Shown here: one piece after another, positions 15,415 to 31,955 of the stretch
Layout: every line of letters begins with the position of its first letter
Position numbering within the stretch: the stretch's first letter is position 1
Source: Candidatus Kaiserbacteria bacterium
GTDB lineage: Bacteria > Patescibacteriota > Minisyncoccia > Phycocordibacterales > UBA2100
Length of the DNA stretch: 33,594 nucleotides
Assembly: GCA_019247335.1 (NCBI GenBank)
Contig: JAFAPB010000046.1
Coordinates: forward strand, 1-33,594
Direction of reading: 5' to 3'
Made by a program: the position numbers and the translations under genes
The notes under the pieces: generated by a model
Seen by the model: only the letters and a program-made list of their open reading frames with translations
Told to the model about the DNA's origin: nothing
Databases searched by the model: none

Positions 15415-15499
15415 TTTTGGCCTCCACTCACGAAACTCTACGATATTTTGAAGGGCGCGTCTATGTGAGCTTGAATCTCGATTTTTGAGAGAAATTGGC

Positions 15500-15505
15500 T
15501 ATACT
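15500..15505 (+). promoter_or_regulatory. -10 box of the tRNA-Asn operon
   Basis: TATACT ends 9 bases before the first tRNA base. A good -35 is not obvious (TTGAGA is too near, TTGAAT too far). It gives an internal reference for where transcription starts after a -10 box in this genome. Confidence 0.7.
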
Positions 15506-15514
15506 CTTCAAGAT

Positions 15515-15586
15515 TCCCCGGTGGCGCAATGGTAGCGCAGCTCGCTGTTAACGAGTTGGTTGTAGGTTCGAATCCTACCCGGGGAG
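15515..15586 (+). tRNA. tRNA-Asn (anticodon GTT)
   Basis: All arms fold. The acceptor is TCCCCGG / CCGGGGA with discriminator G. The D arm is GCGC / GCGC with loop AATGGTA. The anticodon arm is GCTCG / CGAGT with loop CTGTTAA. The T arm is GTAGG / CCTAC with TTCGAAT. The 3' CCA is not encoded; the next bases are C and then the ATG of a protein gene. G as discriminator fits Asn. Confidence 0.97.
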
Positions 15587-15587
15587 C

Positions 15588-15755
15588 ATGAGAAAGATCG
15601 CAGACATCGTGCTGATCGCGGGTTTTTTGATCGTCGATTTTCTGCTGTTCCACGACCTCTTTAAGCCGGGCGAGAGCTATACCGTCGCGGAGTATCTCAT
15701 CGGCGCCTTGAGCGTGCTCGTCTTTATTACGTCGGCCCGGTCATTACTGAAATAG
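15588..15755 (+). CDS. Small two-helix membrane protein directly after tRNA-Asn
   Basis: The product has 55 residues. Hydrophobic helices lie at about 7-22 and 36-50, joined by a polar loop (Asp-Leu-Phe-Lys-Pro-Gly-Glu-Ser-Tyr). No family is recognised. Its ATG begins two bases after the tRNA discriminator base, leaving no room for a ribosome-binding site or promoter. It must be translated from the tRNA-mRNA transcript or from the product of tRNA 3' cleavage. The next gene starts two bases after its stop, and the whole run to 18095 is on one strand, so I treat it as the first gene of the operon. Confidence 0.65.
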   Translation: MRKIADIVLIAGFLIVDFLLFHDLFKPGESYTVAEYLIGALSVLVFITSARSLLK

Positions 15756-15757
15756 CT

Positions 15758-15982
15758 ATGGGCGTCAAAGACTTTCTGTTCTATATAACCAACAACGAAG
15801 AGACTTCGCGCCACGAGGAATATTTTGATATCGCGTTCTTCATCATCAATACTGCTGTCGTCTTGATCGGCGGTTGGTATCTTATTCACGAAGGGGAATC
15901 GCACTGGCTGCCGTTTCTCATCATCGAATACACTTGGGCGATCGATACCATGCGGCATAACAGACCGAAGGGCGGCCTATGA
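15758..15982 (+). CDS. Small membrane protein, unknown
   Basis: The 74-residue product has a polar charged N-terminus (Asn-Asn-Glu-Glu-Thr-Ser-Arg-His-Glu-Glu), a helix at about 24-43 and a second, less hydrophobic one at about 49-62, and a basic C-terminus. I do not recognise a family. It shares a 4-base ATGA overlap with the HIT-domain gene downstream, so translation is probably coupled. Together with the 55-residue protein before it, it makes a pair of small membrane proteins ahead of a membrane-anchored HIT protein and an exporter, which may point to a shared membrane job; that is inference. Confidence 0.72.
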   Translation: MGVKDFLFYITNNEETSRHEEYFDIAFFIINTAVVLIGGWYLIHEGESHWLPFLIIEYTWAIDTMRHNRPKGGL

Positions 15983-16686
15983 AATACACCGGCAACGACT
16001 TTTATTGCGACGTCGCGCTCAAAGGGAAAGAGCCGATCGAGAAAGAGTACGAGAGCGATCAGGTGCTCGCATACAAGCATACGCGCCCTCACTGGGAGAC
16101 GCACTATGTAGTCGTGGCGAAAAAGCACATCGATTCGTTCAGCACGTTGAAAGCGGCGGACGCTCCGATCCTTTCAGAGATGCTTGAGGTCGCGCGGAAG
16201 ATCGCGCGCAAGCTCGAAAAAGAGGAGGGCGGCGCTCGCATTCTGACGAACCTCGGGGAATATCAGGATTCAAAGCATCTGCATTTCCATGTGACTGCCG
16301 GCGAGGAGATCGAAGGCTTGAGTCTGGAAGATCTGGAAGATCTTGAGCCTGACACCGAGAGCGAAGATCAGAAAGACCCGAATGATCCGTCAAAGGTCTC
16401 GACCGCTCGCACCGTCTCATACACGATCCTTGGCATTACTTTCGGCGCCGCGATCGGCGCCGCAGGCGCGTCGCAGTTGGTGCAGCCGTCGATCGCGCCC
16501 GCAGTCGCGTGCATGGCTACGACGACCGTACAGGCTCTTACGCCTATTAAAGCGACGCCCGCCGTATCCAAGCCCGCCGTGACGACGCCGAAGTCGCGCG
16601 CGACGACAACCCCTGCCGCGACGAGCTCCGCCGGCGCTATAGCGACCACGTCCGCCGCCACGAGTTCGAGTGCGACCGGGATTTAA
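15979..16686 (+). CDS. HIT-family protein with C-terminal membrane helix and Ala/Thr-rich tail
   Basis: The protein has 235 residues. The first 110 are a HIT domain: Thr-Arg-Pro-His-Trp-Glu-Thr-His-Tyr-Val-Val-Val near 36-46, and the catalytic triad KHLHFHV with His100, His102 and His104. HIT enzymes hydrolyse or transfer nucleotidyl groups (such as AMP-lysine or AMP-NH2 linkages). An acidic linker (about 110-140) leads to a single hydrophobic helix (about 146-167) and a 65-residue Ala/Thr/Ser-rich tail. That extension is unusual, since HIT proteins are normally soluble and about 110-150 residues long. The tail would lie outside the membrane if the N-terminus is inside. It overlaps the previous gene by 4 bases and is 5 bases from the exporter gene. 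Confidence 0.85.
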   Translation: MKYTGNDFYCDVALKGKEPIEKEYESDQVLAYKHTRPHWETHYVVVAKKHIDSFSTLKAADAPILSEMLEVARKIARKLEKEEGGARILTNLGEYQDSKHLHFHVTAGEEIEGLSLEDLEDLEPDTESEDQKDPNDPSKVSTARTVSYTILGITFGAAIGAAGASQLVQPSIAPAVACMATTTVQALTPIKATPAVSKPAVTTPKSRATTTPAATSSAGAIATTSAATSSSATGI

Positions 16687-16691
16687 GAAAT

Positions 16692-18095
16692 ATGAGGGAT
16701 AAACGCTGGCTCGCGCTTTTTGTACTGTGCCTCGGCACGCTCATGATCGTGCTCGACACGACCATCGTGAATGTCGCACTACCCTCGATCCGTGAGAGTC
16801 TTGGCTTTACGCAAACGGCGCTCGCTTGGGTCGTCAACGCATACGTGCTGACATTTGGCGGCTTCCTGCTTCTCGGCGGGCGGCTCGGTGATCTCTACGG
16901 CAACCGCCGCCTTTTCGTGCTTGGGATCACGCTTTTCACGCTCGCGTCGCTCGCGTGCGGTCTTGCACAGTCGCAAACGTTTTTGATCATCGCGCGAGCG
17001 ATACAGGGTTTAGGAGGCGCGGTCGTATCTGCGGTCGGACTTTCGCTCGTGATGAACCTCTTTGTGGAAGAGACGGAACGTGCTCGCGCGATGGGCGTCT
17101 TTGGTTTCGTCGCCGCCGGCGGGGGAGCGATCGGCGTTCTCCTCGGCGGTATCCTGACGGGCGGGTTGAATTGGCACTGGATCTTTCTCGTCAATATTCC
17201 GGTCGGCATTTTGGTCGTCGCATTATGTTTATGGCTGATTCCAGAGAGCCACGCCGCTGAGAAAACGCATCTTGACGTCGGCGGCGCGGTCACGGTGACG
17301 CTCGCGCTCATGCTCGCTGTCTACTCGATCGTCGGCGGTAACGAGGCGGGCTGGACATCGCTTACAACGATCGGTCTTCTTGTGCTTTCCGCGGTTTTTC
17401 TCGGTATATTCATTTGGATCGAAAGCGTCGTGAAAGCGCCGCTCGCGCCGCTACGTCTTTTTACACGCGGCAATATCGTCGCGTCGAACATCGCAGGAAT
17501 CTTGTGGTCGGCGGGCATGTTCGCGTGGTTCTTTCTCTCGGCGCTCTACATGCAACTCATTCTCGGCTACACGCCGCTCCAGGTCGGCCTCGCGTTCTTG
17601 CCGTCGAATCTCATCATGGCGGCGCTCTCGGTCGGGCTCTCTGCACGGATCGTTATGCGTTTTGGCATTCGTGCATCACTCGCGACGGGGCTCTCGCTCG
17701 TCGCGCTGGGACTCCTTCTCCTTTCGAGAGCGCCGATCGATGGTTCGTTTGTGCGCGATCTTCTGCCGAGCATGACCCTGCTCGGTCTCGGCGCGGGCAT
17801 TTCATTTAATCCGATGCTCCTCGCTGCGATGAGCGATGCCGAGCAAAAAGACAGCGGTCTCGCATCCGGCGTTGTGAACACCGCGTTTATGATGGGCGGC
17901 TCGCTCGGCCTTGCGATCCTCGCGAGCGCAGCCGCGGCGCGCACGGAGAGCCTGCGCGGATCGGGTGCCAATATGCTTGCCGCGCTCAATGGCGGATATC
18001 AACACGCGTTTCTCATCGGATTTTGCTTCGTGGCGCTCGCGGCACTGGTCGCTGCATTCGGATTGCGTTCCAAGACGGTCACCGCGCAAAATTAG
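16692..18095 (+). CDS. MFS multidrug exporter, DHA2 (14-helix) family
   Basis: The 467-residue protein is hydrophobic throughout, with 13-14 helices. Motif A (GGRLGDLYGNRRLFV near 56-70) and the antiporter motif C (about 138-155, Gly-rich, followed by WHWIFLVNIPVG) are both present. Asp22 in MIVLDTTIVNVALP, the first helix, is the family's conserved acidic residue. The family exports drugs, dyes or metabolites in exchange for protons, and the substrate is not readable here. It is the last gene of the tRNA-Asn operon. Its stop TAG overlaps the stop of the small basic protein gene on the other strand (shared TTAG). Confidence 0.94.
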   Translation: MRDKRWLALFVLCLGTLMIVLDTTIVNVALPSIRESLGFTQTALAWVVNAYVLTFGGFLLLGGRLGDLYGNRRLFVLGITLFTLASLACGLAQSQTFLIIARAIQGLGGAVVSAVGLSLVMNLFVEETERARAMGVFGFVAAGGGAIGVLLGGILTGGLNWHWIFLVNIPVGILVVALCLWLIPESHAAEKTHLDVGGAVTVTLALMLAVYSIVGGNEAGWTSLTTIGLLVLSAVFLGIFIWIESVVKAPLAPLRLFTRGNIVASNIAGILWSAGMFAWFFLSALYMQLILGYTPLQVGLAFLPSNLIMAALSVGLSARIVMRFGIRASLATGLSLVALGLLLLSRAPIDGSFVRDLLPSMTLLGLGAGISFNPMLLAAMSDAEQKDSGLASGVVNTAFMMGGSLGLAILASAAAARTESLRGSGANMLAALNGGYQHAFLIGFCFVALAALVAAFGLRSKTVTAQN

Positions 18096-20715: not shown

Positions 20716-20930
20716 GCGCCCAATCCGCAAGCAGACTGGGCGTTCAGAGCGGTCGGTAAACTACCGACTGAGGCGGAAGCCTCTACGGCCACGTGACTAA
20801 CGTCGTCGCTCTAAGAAAGTGGCCGGCCGGGTGGCGGCGTGTCATTGAGGAGGCCACTCACACGCTGCCCCCGGACCGGCCGAACCCCACGGGCCTCAGG
20901 AGATGCGGCGGACCTGAGCATTCCGTAGGG
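20716..20930. ncRNA. Candidate structured RNA (about 215 bases), family not recognised
   Basis: No supported gene occupies this stretch, and nearly all of it folds into consecutive stems: 20717-20722/20737-20742, 20752-20758/20762-20768, 20770-20774/20779-20783 (GGAA tetraloop), 20786-20792/20819-20825, 20825-20830/20876-20881 enclosing 20833-20842/20860-20869 (10 bp, one G-U), and 20886-20892/20923-20930 enclosing 20895-20900/20913-20918. The fourth and fifth stems compete for base 20825. The plus orientation gives a proper GGAA tetraloop and has TATAAA at 20704-20709 before it. Neither orientation shows a clean terminator. I looked for the consensus cores of RNase P, tmRNA, SRP RNA and 6S RNA and did not see them. 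Confidence 0.55.
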
Positions 20931-20969
20931 AACGAAACTTAATGCAATTTAGCAAAAAACAGCGTTTGA

Positions 20970-21290: not shown

Positions 21291-21520
21291 TTCGACATAC
21301 AAATGCAATGCCCCGCATGTGTCGAAGGTGCGAGATCGGATTCAGCTTTTACCGTTTAGCCAACCTGTCCGGTATTCAGGTCGGGATCCGGTGCCGGAGC
21401 CGCATATCGCTGGCTGGTCGGCGGCCTAGTGCGCTCGCGGTGCCCCCATGCATCCCGGGAGGAGACTCGTTGGTCGGAGGATGCATTAGATTACCTACGT
21501 TTATTCTTGCGCCGGCTAAA
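21291..21520. ncRNA. Second candidate structured RNA region
   Basis: This non-coding stretch before mreB has a 7-bp stem at its left end (TTCGACA 21291-21297 / TGTCGAA 21320-21326, with an inner ATGC/GCAT). A long-range 7-bp pair TTTAGCC 21355-21361 / GGCTAAA 21514-21520 closes a domain. That domain holds ACCTG/CAGGT (21363-21367/21377-21381) and an 8-bp stem ATGCATCC 21448-21455 / GGATGCAT 21479-21486. The nested order supports a fold, but pairing alone cannot prove transcription. No similarity to the first region is visible, and no RNase P or tmRNA core. Confidence 0.4.
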
Positions 21521-21560
21521 TCTTTGTCAAAGCCGACTGTGCATATACAATGCGTGCACC

Positions 21561-22577
21561 ATGGCGTTCTCTTTTGCTCCGAAGCTGGGCATCGATCTCG
21601 GTACGACGACGGTCTTGGTTTTCGTTCCCGGCCACGGCATTGTGCTCAACGAGCCCTCGGTCGTCGCCGTCTCGCAGGGTGAGAATAAGATACTCGCGAT
21701 CGGCAACGATGCTAAGAATATGATCGGCAGAACGCCGGAAGAGATCATCGCGTACCGTCCGATGAAAGACGGCGTCATCGCGGATTATCGCGTAACGGAA
21801 GCGATGCTGCGCTATTACATCAAGAAAGCGCTGGGGCGATGGAATCTCTTCCGCCCCGAAGTCATGGTCTCGGTGCCTGCAGGAGTCACCTCGACCGAGC
21901 GCCGCGCGGTCGTCGAGGCAGCGACGAAAGCAGGCGCGCGCGAAGCATATGTGGTGAAAGAGCCGATCCTCGCGGCGATCGGCGCGGGGATTCCCATTCA
22001 GGAGGCGCGCGGACACATGATCGTCGATATCGGCGGCGGCACGACCGACGTCGCGGTCATCTCGCTCGGCGGCATCGTTGCCTCGACTTCGGTCAAATGC
22101 GCGGGCAACCGCATGGACCGCGCGATCGCTGATTACATCAAAAAGACGGCCAATCTTTCGATCGGTGACAAAATGGCGGAGGATATCAAGATTCATATCG
22201 GCTCGGCAGTGCCTGTAGAGGACGAGCTCATGATGGTCATCAAAGGCCGCGATCATCTGACGGGACTCCCGCGCTCGATCGAGATCGGTACCAACGAGGT
22301 CGTGCGCGCGATCGGCAAGGAATTGCGCACGATGGTCGGCGCGATCAAGGATGTATTGCAAGATACGCCGCCGGAACTGGCCGCAGACATCATCGACAAC
22401 GGCATCACCATGACGGGCGGCTCCTCGCAGCTGCGCAATCTGCCGGAACTCATCTATCGTCGCACAGGGGTGAAGGCGCGAATGGCCAAAGACGCACCGT
22501 ACTGCGTCGCGAAGGGGACCGGTGAAGCGCTGAAGCATTTGGACACCTACAAAAAAGCCATCATTTCGAAGCGATAG
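21561..22577 (+). CDS. mreB: MreB-family actin-like protein (first paralogue)
   Basis: The 338-residue protein has the actin-fold ATPase signatures: GIDLGTTTVLVF near 10-21 (phosphate 1), IVDIGGGTTDVAV near 154-166 (phosphate 2) and MTGGSSQLRNLP near 285-296 (adenosine). MreB filaments at the inner membrane guide cell-wall synthesis in rods. Unlike the second MreB it is not next to mreC. The first residues (Met-Ala-Phe-Ser-Phe-Ala-Pro-Lys) lack a long amphipathic helix, though Phe residues may contact membrane. I start at 21561; TACAAT (21546-21551) ends 9 bases before it. A longer frame from 21429 would cross the RNA-like region. It could serve a distinct job from the second paralogue. Confidence 0.93.
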   Translation: MAFSFAPKLGIDLGTTTVLVFVPGHGIVLNEPSVVAVSQGENKILAIGNDAKNMIGRTPEEIIAYRPMKDGVIADYRVTEAMLRYYIKKALGRWNLFRPEVMVSVPAGVTSTERRAVVEAATKAGAREAYVVKEPILAAIGAGIPIQEARGHMIVDIGGGTTDVAVISLGGIVASTSVKCAGNRMDRAIADYIKKTANLSIGDKMAEDIKIHIGSAVPVEDELMMVIKGRDHLTGLPRSIEIGTNEVVRAIGKELRTMVGAIKDVLQDTPPELAADIIDNGITMTGGSSQLRNLPELIYRRTGVKARMAKDAPYCVAKGTGEALKHLDTYKKAIISKR

Positions 22578-30090: not shown

Positions 30091-31164
30091 ATGTTCAAGG
30101 CATTGCGCGAGATGAAAGACAGGGTGCTCGGTTGGTTTTCGAACGACATTGGCATCGATCTTGGGACGGCGAATACGCTTGTTAACGTGAGCGGACGCGG
30201 CGTCGTTATATCGGAGCCATCGATCGTCGCGATGAACACGAAAACGGGGCAGGTGGTCGCAGTCGGGCAGATTGCCAAAGACATGCTCGGACGCACGCCG
30301 CCGCACATCCAGGCCGTTCAACCGGTCATCGACGGCGTGATCTCCGACTTCGAAGTGACTTCGGAGCTGCTTTCATACCTGATCAATAAGGCGCAGGCGG
30401 GGCACACGAAGCTCCTCGGGCCGCGTGTCGCTGTCGGCGTGCCGTCCGGTATCACCTCCGTCGAGGTGCGAGCCGTGCGCGATGCGGCGCGCGCCGCAGG
30501 CGCGCGCGAGGTACATATCATCGAAGAGCCGCTCGCGGCCGCGATCGGTATCGAGCTGCCGGTGCATGAGCCATCAGGAAGCATGGTGATCGACATCGGC
30601 GGCGGTACGACGGATATCGGAATCGTTAGCCTCGGCGGACTCGTCAACGCGCGCAACGTACGCATCGCAGGCGATAAATTCAACGCAGACATCATCAGCC
30701 ACATCAGGAACGAATATAAGCTCTTGATCGGTGAGAAGACCGCCGAGGAAATTAAGATCGCGATCGCGAATGTTGCGCCCGGCCGCGATCGGCTCGAGGC
30801 GATCGTCCGCGGGCGCGATCTCGTTTCGGGACTGCCGCGGGAGATCCTCATCACCGATCAGGACATCCGCAATGCGATCGACCACTCGATCGACGAGCTT
30901 TTGGAATCCATCAAAGAGGTGCTCGAAACGACGCCGCCGGAAATCGTCGCCGACGTGATGCAGCGCGGTATGTATCTCGCCGGGGGCGGGGCGCTGATCC
31001 GCGGCCTCCCGGATTACATCTCGCGCATGATCGGCATTCCGGTCATCGTCGCGACCGACCCTTTGACCGCTGTCGTCCGCGGCACATCGATCGTACTCGG
31101 CGACCTCGACCGATACCGCGAGGCGCTCCTTAAGAGCGATGACGAGCTCATTCCGACCGAATAG
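30091..31164 (+). CDS. mreB: MreB (second paralogue, in the mreBCD cluster)
   Basis: The 357-residue protein has GIDLGTANTLVNV near 21-33, VIDIGGGTTDIGIV near 167-180 and MYLAGGGALIRGLP near 293-306, all actin-fold ATP-binding motifs. The N-terminus has a short amphipathic start (Met-Phe-Lys-Ala-Leu-Arg-Glu-Met-Lys-Asp-Arg-Val-Leu-Gly-Trp-Phe) that could bind membrane. The sequence is closer to canonical MreB than the paralogue at 21561. It starts 2 bases after proS, without its own -10 box in view, and is followed by mreC at 2 bases, so proS-mreB-mreC-mreD is one operon. Confidence 0.96.
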   Translation: MFKALREMKDRVLGWFSNDIGIDLGTANTLVNVSGRGVVISEPSIVAMNTKTGQVVAVGQIAKDMLGRTPPHIQAVQPVIDGVISDFEVTSELLSYLINKAQAGHTKLLGPRVAVGVPSGITSVEVRAVRDAARAAGAREVHIIEEPLAAAIGIELPVHEPSGSMVIDIGGGTTDIGIVSLGGLVNARNVRIAGDKFNADIISHIRNEYKLLIGEKTAEEIKIAIANVAPGRDRLEAIVRGRDLVSGLPREILITDQDIRNAIDHSIDELLESIKEVLETTPPEIVADVMQRGMYLAGGGALIRGLPDYISRMIGIPVIVATDPLTAVVRGTSIVLGDLDRYREALLKSDDELIPTE

Positions 31165-31166
31165 GT

Positions 31167-31955
31167 ATGGCGGAATTCTCGCACCGATCGCTGCACGGAG
31201 CGCGCGCGGGGCGGCGGCGGCTCCTCGCCGCGACATTTCTCGTCGTTTTTTTGATCGTGCTCGACATCGTAACGGGCGGATCGGTTCGCTCGCTCATTCG
31301 CACGGGCGCGACGACACTGTGGTCGGCGACGGCGCGTGCGCGCGCCGGTATCATAGAGACCGGCTATTTCAGAAGCCATCGTGCGCTCGCGAGCGAGAAC
31401 GCGTCGCTGCGTGATGAGGTCGCATCGTTGCAGGAAAAGGCGGCGCAGTACAATGTCGTCGCCGACGAAAATACGCAGCTGCGCGATCTCGTGCACCTTG
31501 CGTCGACTGAGCGAGGCATCACGGCGCCCGTCGTTTCGTCGTTTCGAAGCTCACCCTATGGGACATTTCTCATCGGCGCCGGAAAAAATGATCCGGTCGC
31601 CGCTGGCGATATCGTGCTCACGCCCGGCGGATTCGTGATCGGCATCATTGCCGACGTGCAGGATCGAACGAGCGCAGTGCGCGGCATCTTTTCATCCGGC
31701 ATGACGAGCGACGTGCTCATCGGTACGACTCCCGTCACGCTCACGGGTGAGGGCGGCGGCAATGCAAAAGGCAGCGCGCCGCGCGGCGTTTCGATCCAAG
31801 CGGGCGATCCTGTTATCGCGCGCCAGTACGGCGGGCGGCCCGTCGGCATCGTCGGCAAAGTGGAGTCTTCGCCGACGAGCCCCGACCAGACGGTCTATGT
31901 GCGCATTCCGGTGAATCTCGAGTCGCTCCGCTTCGTCTACATTCTCCATGCATAA
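31167..31955 (+). CDS. mreC: Rod-shape protein MreC
   Basis: The 262-residue protein has a cytoplasmic basic start, a membrane helix (about 20-38), a coiled coil (about 70-105: Leu-Ala-Ser-Glu-Asn-Ala-Ser-Leu-Arg-Asp-Glu-Val) and the beta-rich MreC core (Gly-Ala-Gly-Lys-Asn-Asp-Pro-Val-Ala-Ala-Gly-Asp; Gly-Phe-Val-Ile-Gly-Ile-Ile-Ala). It links MreB filaments to PBP2 outside the membrane. It overlaps mreD by 8 bases. Confidence 0.93.
   Translation: MAEFSHRSLHGARAGRRRLLAATFLVVFLIVLDIVTGGSVRSLIRTGATTLWSATARARAGIIETGYFRSHRALASENASLRDEVASLQEKAAQYNVVADENTQLRDLVHLASTERGITAPVVSSFRSSPYGTFLIGAGKNDPVAAGDIVLTPGGFVIGIIADVQDRTSAVRGIFSSGMTSDVLIGTTPVTLTGEGGGNAKGSAPRGVSIQAGDPVIARQYGGRPVGIVGKVESSPTSPDQTVYVRIPVNLESLRFVYILHA

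Follow-up and report, generated by a model that had tools for sequence, protein, structure and literature searches.

In animal mitochondria, mRNAs are cut out from between tRNAs by RNase P and ELAC2/RNase Z, an arrangement known as tRNA punctuation. Leaderless mRNAs of actinobacteria and archaea arise when transcription begins at the start codon itself, and exonucleolytic routes to the tRNA 3' end are known in other reduced bacteria, such as that of RNase R in Mycoplasma. The tRNA-related passages of a differential RNA-seq study of Propionibacterium acnes (P. acnes), a species in which a tRNase Z is not obvious, place endonucleolytic cleavage inside CCA, between C74 and C75, and its authors regard the cutting enzyme as open to speculation (PMC3848588). 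Corresponding passages on Streptomyces coelicolor (S. coelicolor) describe cleavage of its tRNAs at the same place, C74/C75 (PMC4681348).

The junction analysed here lies in a 33,594-nt stretch of DNA (the window), which is contig 67 of an apparently reduced Patescibacteria (Parcubacteria-type) genome of 861 kb in 89 contigs, 94.8% complete. It resembles mitochondrial tRNA punctuation in that a tRNA abuts an ORF and 3' processing would release a nearly leaderless mRNA, and separations of 1–3 nt between tRNA and ORF occur repeatedly within one genome. It differs in its location on a bacterial chromosome, in the individual promoters of the tRNAs and in the involvement of only a minority of genes; the mitochondrial RNase P cut, moreover, concerns a tRNA that follows the ORF, whereas at this locus the tRNA precedes the ORF and is served by a promoter of its own. 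An RNase Z to make the 3' cut, a defining feature of the mitochondrial system, was not found here, and the arrangement is therefore placed as a variant of mitochondrial tRNA punctuation and not as a member of it.

With P. acnes and S. coelicolor the locus would share an endonucleolytic cut between C74 and C75 (PMC3848588, PMC4681348). An RNase Z was not found here and C74 stands at the 3' ends of the tRNA genes, and the lack of an obvious tRNase Z together with many leaderless mRNAs is a likeness to P. acnes as described in the same passages (PMC3848588). On the other hand, the tRNAs of the present genome mostly encode only C74, S. coelicolor is credited with a tRNase Z homologue (PMC4681348), and the relevant passages of both reports do not describe leaderless mRNAs produced by the cut (PMC3848588, PMC4681348). 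As in leaderless mRNAs made by initiation, which are the dominant style of this genome, AUG would stand at or within a few nucleotides of the 5' end; unlike in those, the end would come from processing and carry a monophosphate. Taken as a whole, comparison of the sequences makes it probable that tRNA 3' processing by a cut after C74, made by a nuclease other than RNase Z, creates a leaderless mRNA at this junction.

The tRNA-Asn junction and its setting

The initial annotation had described a tRNA-Asn joined directly to a start codon, and this description stands. ARAGORN and Rfam agree on tRNA-Asn(GTT) at 15515-15586/7, the acceptor stem pairs TCCCCGG with CCGGGGA, and C15587 is the only nucleotide between discriminator G15586 and the ATG at 15588-15590, a gap of 1 nt. 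Upstream, the -10 box of the tRNA (Table 1) lies where TANNNT motifs reach their maxima in front of tRNAs of the genus (-15/-16/-14), and the motif ggctatact recurs 5' of many tRNA-Asn genes in relatives. No terminator-like site was found between tRNA-Asn and the 55-aa ORF.

Table 1. Positions of the tRNA-Asn junction and of the genes following it in the window
Feature	Position	Strand	Remarks
-10 box TATACT of the tRNA-Asn promoter	15500..15505	+	15 nt upstream of the tRNA; read from the sequence
tRNA-Asn(GTT)	15515..15586	+	discriminator G15586; CCA not encoded; ARAGORN and Rfam
C74	15587..15587	+	encoded; the cut would probably follow it (5'-AUG) and less likely precede it (5'-C-AUG)
55-aa ORF	15588..15755	+	first gene of the putative tRNA-linked unit; two hydrophobic stretches (hydropathy)
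74-aa ORF	15758..15982	+	conserved small hydrophobic protein; 2 nt past the stop of the 55-aa ORF
HIT-domain protein with long low-complexity tail	15979..16686	+	PF11969/PF01230; 4-nt overlap with the 74-aa ORF
MFS transporter	16692..18095	+	PF07690, E=1.5e-48; 5 nt past the stop of the HIT-domain gene

Codon use in the 55-codon ORF is gene-like, with a score of 0.46 bits per codon where known genes have a median of 0.42 and where just 0.8% of wrong-frame windows score as high, and no in-frame start exists upstream of its ATG before the stop codon inside the tRNA. It has no Pfam match and no detectable homologue in 69 genomes of the family. The 74-aa protein, in contrast, has relatives within the genus (the best 60-70% identical), which are encoded at other loci with no tRNA within ~1.5 kb. 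A conserved spacing between tRNA-Asn and this gene family, for which the initial annotation had proposed a check in relatives, is consequently not seen, and the idea that tRNA-Asn is kept beside the operon of the window was rejected. An antisense frame of 71 codons (15438-15653, - strand) contains RVGFEPTTNSL, a well-known spurious peptide that arises when the complement of a tRNA is translated, and is not a gene.

Abutment of tRNAs and reading frames within and beyond the genus

The genome style was assessed on 487 ORFs of at least 250 codons in 800 kb of a congeneric genome (G037). The motif TANNNT precedes these ORFs at -12/-13/-14/-15 in 66/28/21/16 cases, with approximately 4 per position elsewhere, and Shine-Dalgarno cores upstream of the same ORFs form no peak. 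A -10 spacing of 12–15 nt combined with the absence of a Shine-Dalgarno peak implies leaderless translation in this genome, many promoter-proximal AUGs lying 0–3 nt from the presumed 5' end, in line with the leaderless genome style suggested earlier.

Abutment was then counted among 130 tRNAs of six congeneric genomes, namely all 40 found in the genome of the window and 90 from parts of five others, with ORFs called mechanically. ATG-initiated ORFs of at least 50 codons begin 1–3 nt past the discriminator in 17 of the 130 tRNAs, distributed as 9/6/2 over gaps of 1/2/3 nt with none at gap 0 or gap 4, against a background of ~0.7 per position at gaps 10–59. Such ORFs follow 4 of 40 tRNAs in the genome of the window, 6 of 42 in G037 and 4 of 19 in a third genome (G033). 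Besides the 55-aa ORF after tRNA-Asn, the genome of the window has abutting ORFs after the tRNAs for Gly-TCC (387 aa), Lys-CTT (253 aa, inositol monophosphatase family, IMPase) and Leu-CAA (168 aa, NUDIX). Those of G037 are release factor 2 (RF2) after Thr-CGT, a riboflavin kinase after Ser-TGA, a DNA methylase after Cys, a NUDIX protein after Tyr, a GNAT acetyltransferase after Leu-GAG and a 285-aa protein after Lys-TTT. In G033 an AMP-binding enzyme (Ala), a VTT-domain (DedA-like) protein (Leu), a threonylcarbamoyl-AMP synthase (Val) and a 70-aa ORF (Tyr) are found in this position. What recurs is the architecture, across different tRNAs and different genes, and not one particular gene.

Where an ATG is given, it opens an ORF of at least 100 codons in 15 of 22 cases at gaps 1–3 but in 23 of 98 at gaps 10–59 (Fisher p=1e-4). 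When each tRNA is represented solely by its closest ORF of 100 codons or more, up to 120 nt away (n=38), 15 lie at gaps 1–3, none at gap 4, five at gaps 5–8, none at gaps 9–18 and 18 at 19 nt or beyond. A uniform distribution of gaps would yield 15 of 38 at gaps 1–3 with a binomial p=8e-15. Part of the peak is owed to the frequent A75 (62% of tRNAs), by which an ATG at gap 1 forms more easily than elsewhere, yet the excess persists (p=1.6e-6) when the expectation is raised four-fold for this bias. The empty zone at gaps 9–18 is as expected if a gene either uses the tRNA end, at gaps 1–3, or needs room for its own promoter; the five ORFs at gaps 5–8 fit either model poorly. All these figures describe six genomes of one genus, most of them in part only.

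If the cut follows C74, the mRNAs of the abutting ORFs have leaders of 0/1/2 nt in counts of 9/6/2. Two unrelated routes to a 5' end, initiation and tRNA processing, would then share the spacing of AUG, with the same decay in 66/28/21/16 as in 9/6/2.

Outside the genus, GTDB contigs scanned for tRNA-Asn followed by C and ATG gave at least 118 records, mostly Streptomyces among the matches listed. The Streptomyces matches were rejected; the DNA of their ORF MLNEDPxGVLFHV forms an inverted repeat with T behind it, a terminator by eye. This terminator-like ORF could be mistaken for a small gene by gene callers. At least 23 of the records belong to streamlined freshwater-type actinobacteria (Planktophila, Nanopelagicus and variously named MAGs) and have conserved genes at gap 1, which among the matches listed encode ACT-like proteins of 79-80 aa (13), Rieske proteins (6) and DoxX-Rieske fusions (4). 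The N-terminal twin-arginine motif of the Rieske protein is found at the abutting ATG. No full-length RNase Z match was obtained in 11 such actinobacterial genomes. Judged by these records, abutment with conserved proteins recurs independently in unrelated streamlined actinobacteria.

A different phenomenon is the CCATG of CCA-encoding Patescibacteria, in which the A of CCA is also the A of ATG (at least 21 of 98 among the matches listed), and it was set aside. It is common because a fixed CCA leaves only TG to be supplied for an ATG (~1 in 16), and the four ORFs checked run for 12, 23, 48 and 116 codons, with frames mostly closed. Four tRNA-Asn genes of relatives (L056, L057, L059 and L060) are interrupted behind position 34 by ~230-580 nt of inserted sequence, and Rfam recognises group I introns in four of the split tRNA-Asn genes. 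Group I introns in tRNA genes of Patescibacteria have already been reported (Nakagawa 2025 preprint, as cited in a passage of PMC12641178).

Maturation of the tRNA 3' end and competing explanations

Among the 130 congeneric tRNAs, C74 is encoded in 108 (83%), A75 in 80 (62%) and the full CCA in only 12 (9%), while 16 of the 17 abutting tRNAs have C74. Retention of C74 at 83% with CCA at 9% points to C74 either remaining on the tRNA or directing the cut. The exceptions to C74/A75 in the genus cluster in Glu, Pro and Arg tRNAs.

The initial annotation had assigned the cut to RNase Z, acting directly after the discriminator to leave an mRNA that starts C-AUG. That CCA is not encoded in 91% of the tRNAs agrees with this, such tRNAs being the usual substrate class of RNase Z, but the enzyme itself was found neither in the genome of the window nor in 20 relatives, nor in the sampled order and class. 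The search relied mainly on one profile, TIGR02651 (cut-off 293 bits), which a very divergent enzyme could escape, and in these 21 genomes it gave only short matches of 17-28 bits, whose frame length and matched region point to RNase J or other metallo-beta-lactamases. The profile gives matches in 14 of 14 control genomes, 9 of them above the curated cut-off, and in none of 143 Patescibacteria does a match exceed that cut-off; a full-length RNase Z-like ORF is present in ~15 of the 143, none of them in the sampled order or class. A scan of G037 (93% of the genome) for H-x-[HS]-x-D-H revealed a single plausible metallo-hydrolase, a 626-aa ORF of RNase J-like size. Cleavage by RNase Z is thus very unlikely, and the cut would probably fall one base later than had been proposed, after C74, to give 5'-AUG. 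Exonucleases could instead make the tRNA 3' ends, each transcript becoming either a tRNA or an mRNA whose 5' end is made otherwise. The failure to find RNase Z speaks for such a route, as do the exonucleolytic routes of other reduced bacteria, and if exonucleases alone acted, the mRNA half would not be released intact, a point against the preferred reading. However, the 1–3 nt spacing and the kept C74 are left unexplained, and in P. acnes, where according to the cited passages an RNase Z is likewise not obvious, the cut at precisely C74/C75 is endonucleolytic (PMC3848588). We regard the exonucleolytic account as unlikely.

Two further explanations dispense with a cut. The downstream gene might possess its own leaderless promoter within the tRNA gene, a finding that the initial annotation had named as evidence against its reading, and TA does occur at -12 in the window, yet in the form TACCCG, which is devoid of the final T. 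No TANNNT -10 box stands at leaderless spacing (12–15 nt before ATG) in any of 18 abutting ORFs, their best -10 score being -2.5 bits where 25% of all long ORFs reach 4 or more, and no sigma-70-like site was detected in tRNA-Asn. An internal promoter would also leave unexplained why gaps of 1–3 nt occur with many different tRNAs, and this is the least probable of the alternatives, scarcely credible on these data. Alternatively, translation could proceed from the uncut tRNA-mRNA or from a later start codon, the abutment reflecting mere genome compaction. In its favour are the compactness of the genome and a GTG at codon 8 of the 55-aa ORF, but on an uncut transcript the ribosome should be obstructed by the acceptor stem folded 1 nt ahead of AUG, compaction does not predict a peak at gaps 1–3 beside an empty zone at 9–18, and the actinobacterial proteins keep their N-termini, twin-arginine motifs included, at the abutting ATG. 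This explanation, too, is improbable.

Proposed route and its implications

In the preferred reading, a non-RNase Z cut after C74, the tRNA-Asn promoter would drive a single transcript comprising tRNA-Asn and at least the first gene. A tRNA 3'-maturing endonuclease, probably akin to the C74/C75-cutting activity of P. acnes, would cut this transcript after C15587. The tRNA half would end in N73-C74 and could be completed to CCA by a putative CCA-adding enzyme, and the mRNA half would be leaderless, starting at AUG 15588. The translation system would normally start on leaderless mRNAs, so that no further signal would be needed, and translation would depend on the cut. The initial proposal that the tRNA end serves as the mRNA 5' end is supported on comparative grounds by the distribution of gaps, the leaderless spacing, the lack of a -10 box in the tRNA and the recurrence in actinobacteria. 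Placement of the cut after C15587 draws on the retention of C74 and on the cuts at C74/C75 in P. acnes and S. coelicolor.

More broadly, in streamlined bacteria of at least two phyla in which RNase Z was not found, a tRNA endonuclease acting after C74 may constitute a genome-wide route to leaderless mRNAs that ties selected proteins, release factor 2 among them, to tRNA transcription and maturation; this extension is put forward tentatively, as somewhat less than an even prospect. No description of leaderless mRNA formation by bacterial tRNA 3' processing was found in the open-licence PMC literature, which is not proof of absence. Repetition of the layout in minimal-genome bacteria would show that tRNA punctuation evolved more than once, and punctuation would need only leaderless translation and an exact tRNA 3' cut. 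By the same reading, an activity other than RNase Z must make the tRNA 3' ends in these lineages, and the junctions offer a direct assay for it, since the cut can be read to the nucleotide from the 5' end of a named mRNA. For genome annotation, ORFs that touch a tRNA in such genomes should be neither discarded nor given a later start.

Elsewhere in the window, Rfam RF02500 (Atu_C6/EcpR1), a family known from alphaproteobacteria, matches 20816-20933 on the - strand with 80.5 bits (gathering threshold 60); either the model misfits a GC-rich hairpin or the RNA at this place is an unrelated one. Two predicted MreB-like ORFs lie on the + strand at 21429-22577 and 30091-31164, and the second is followed by a predicted MreC-like ORF at 31167-31955.
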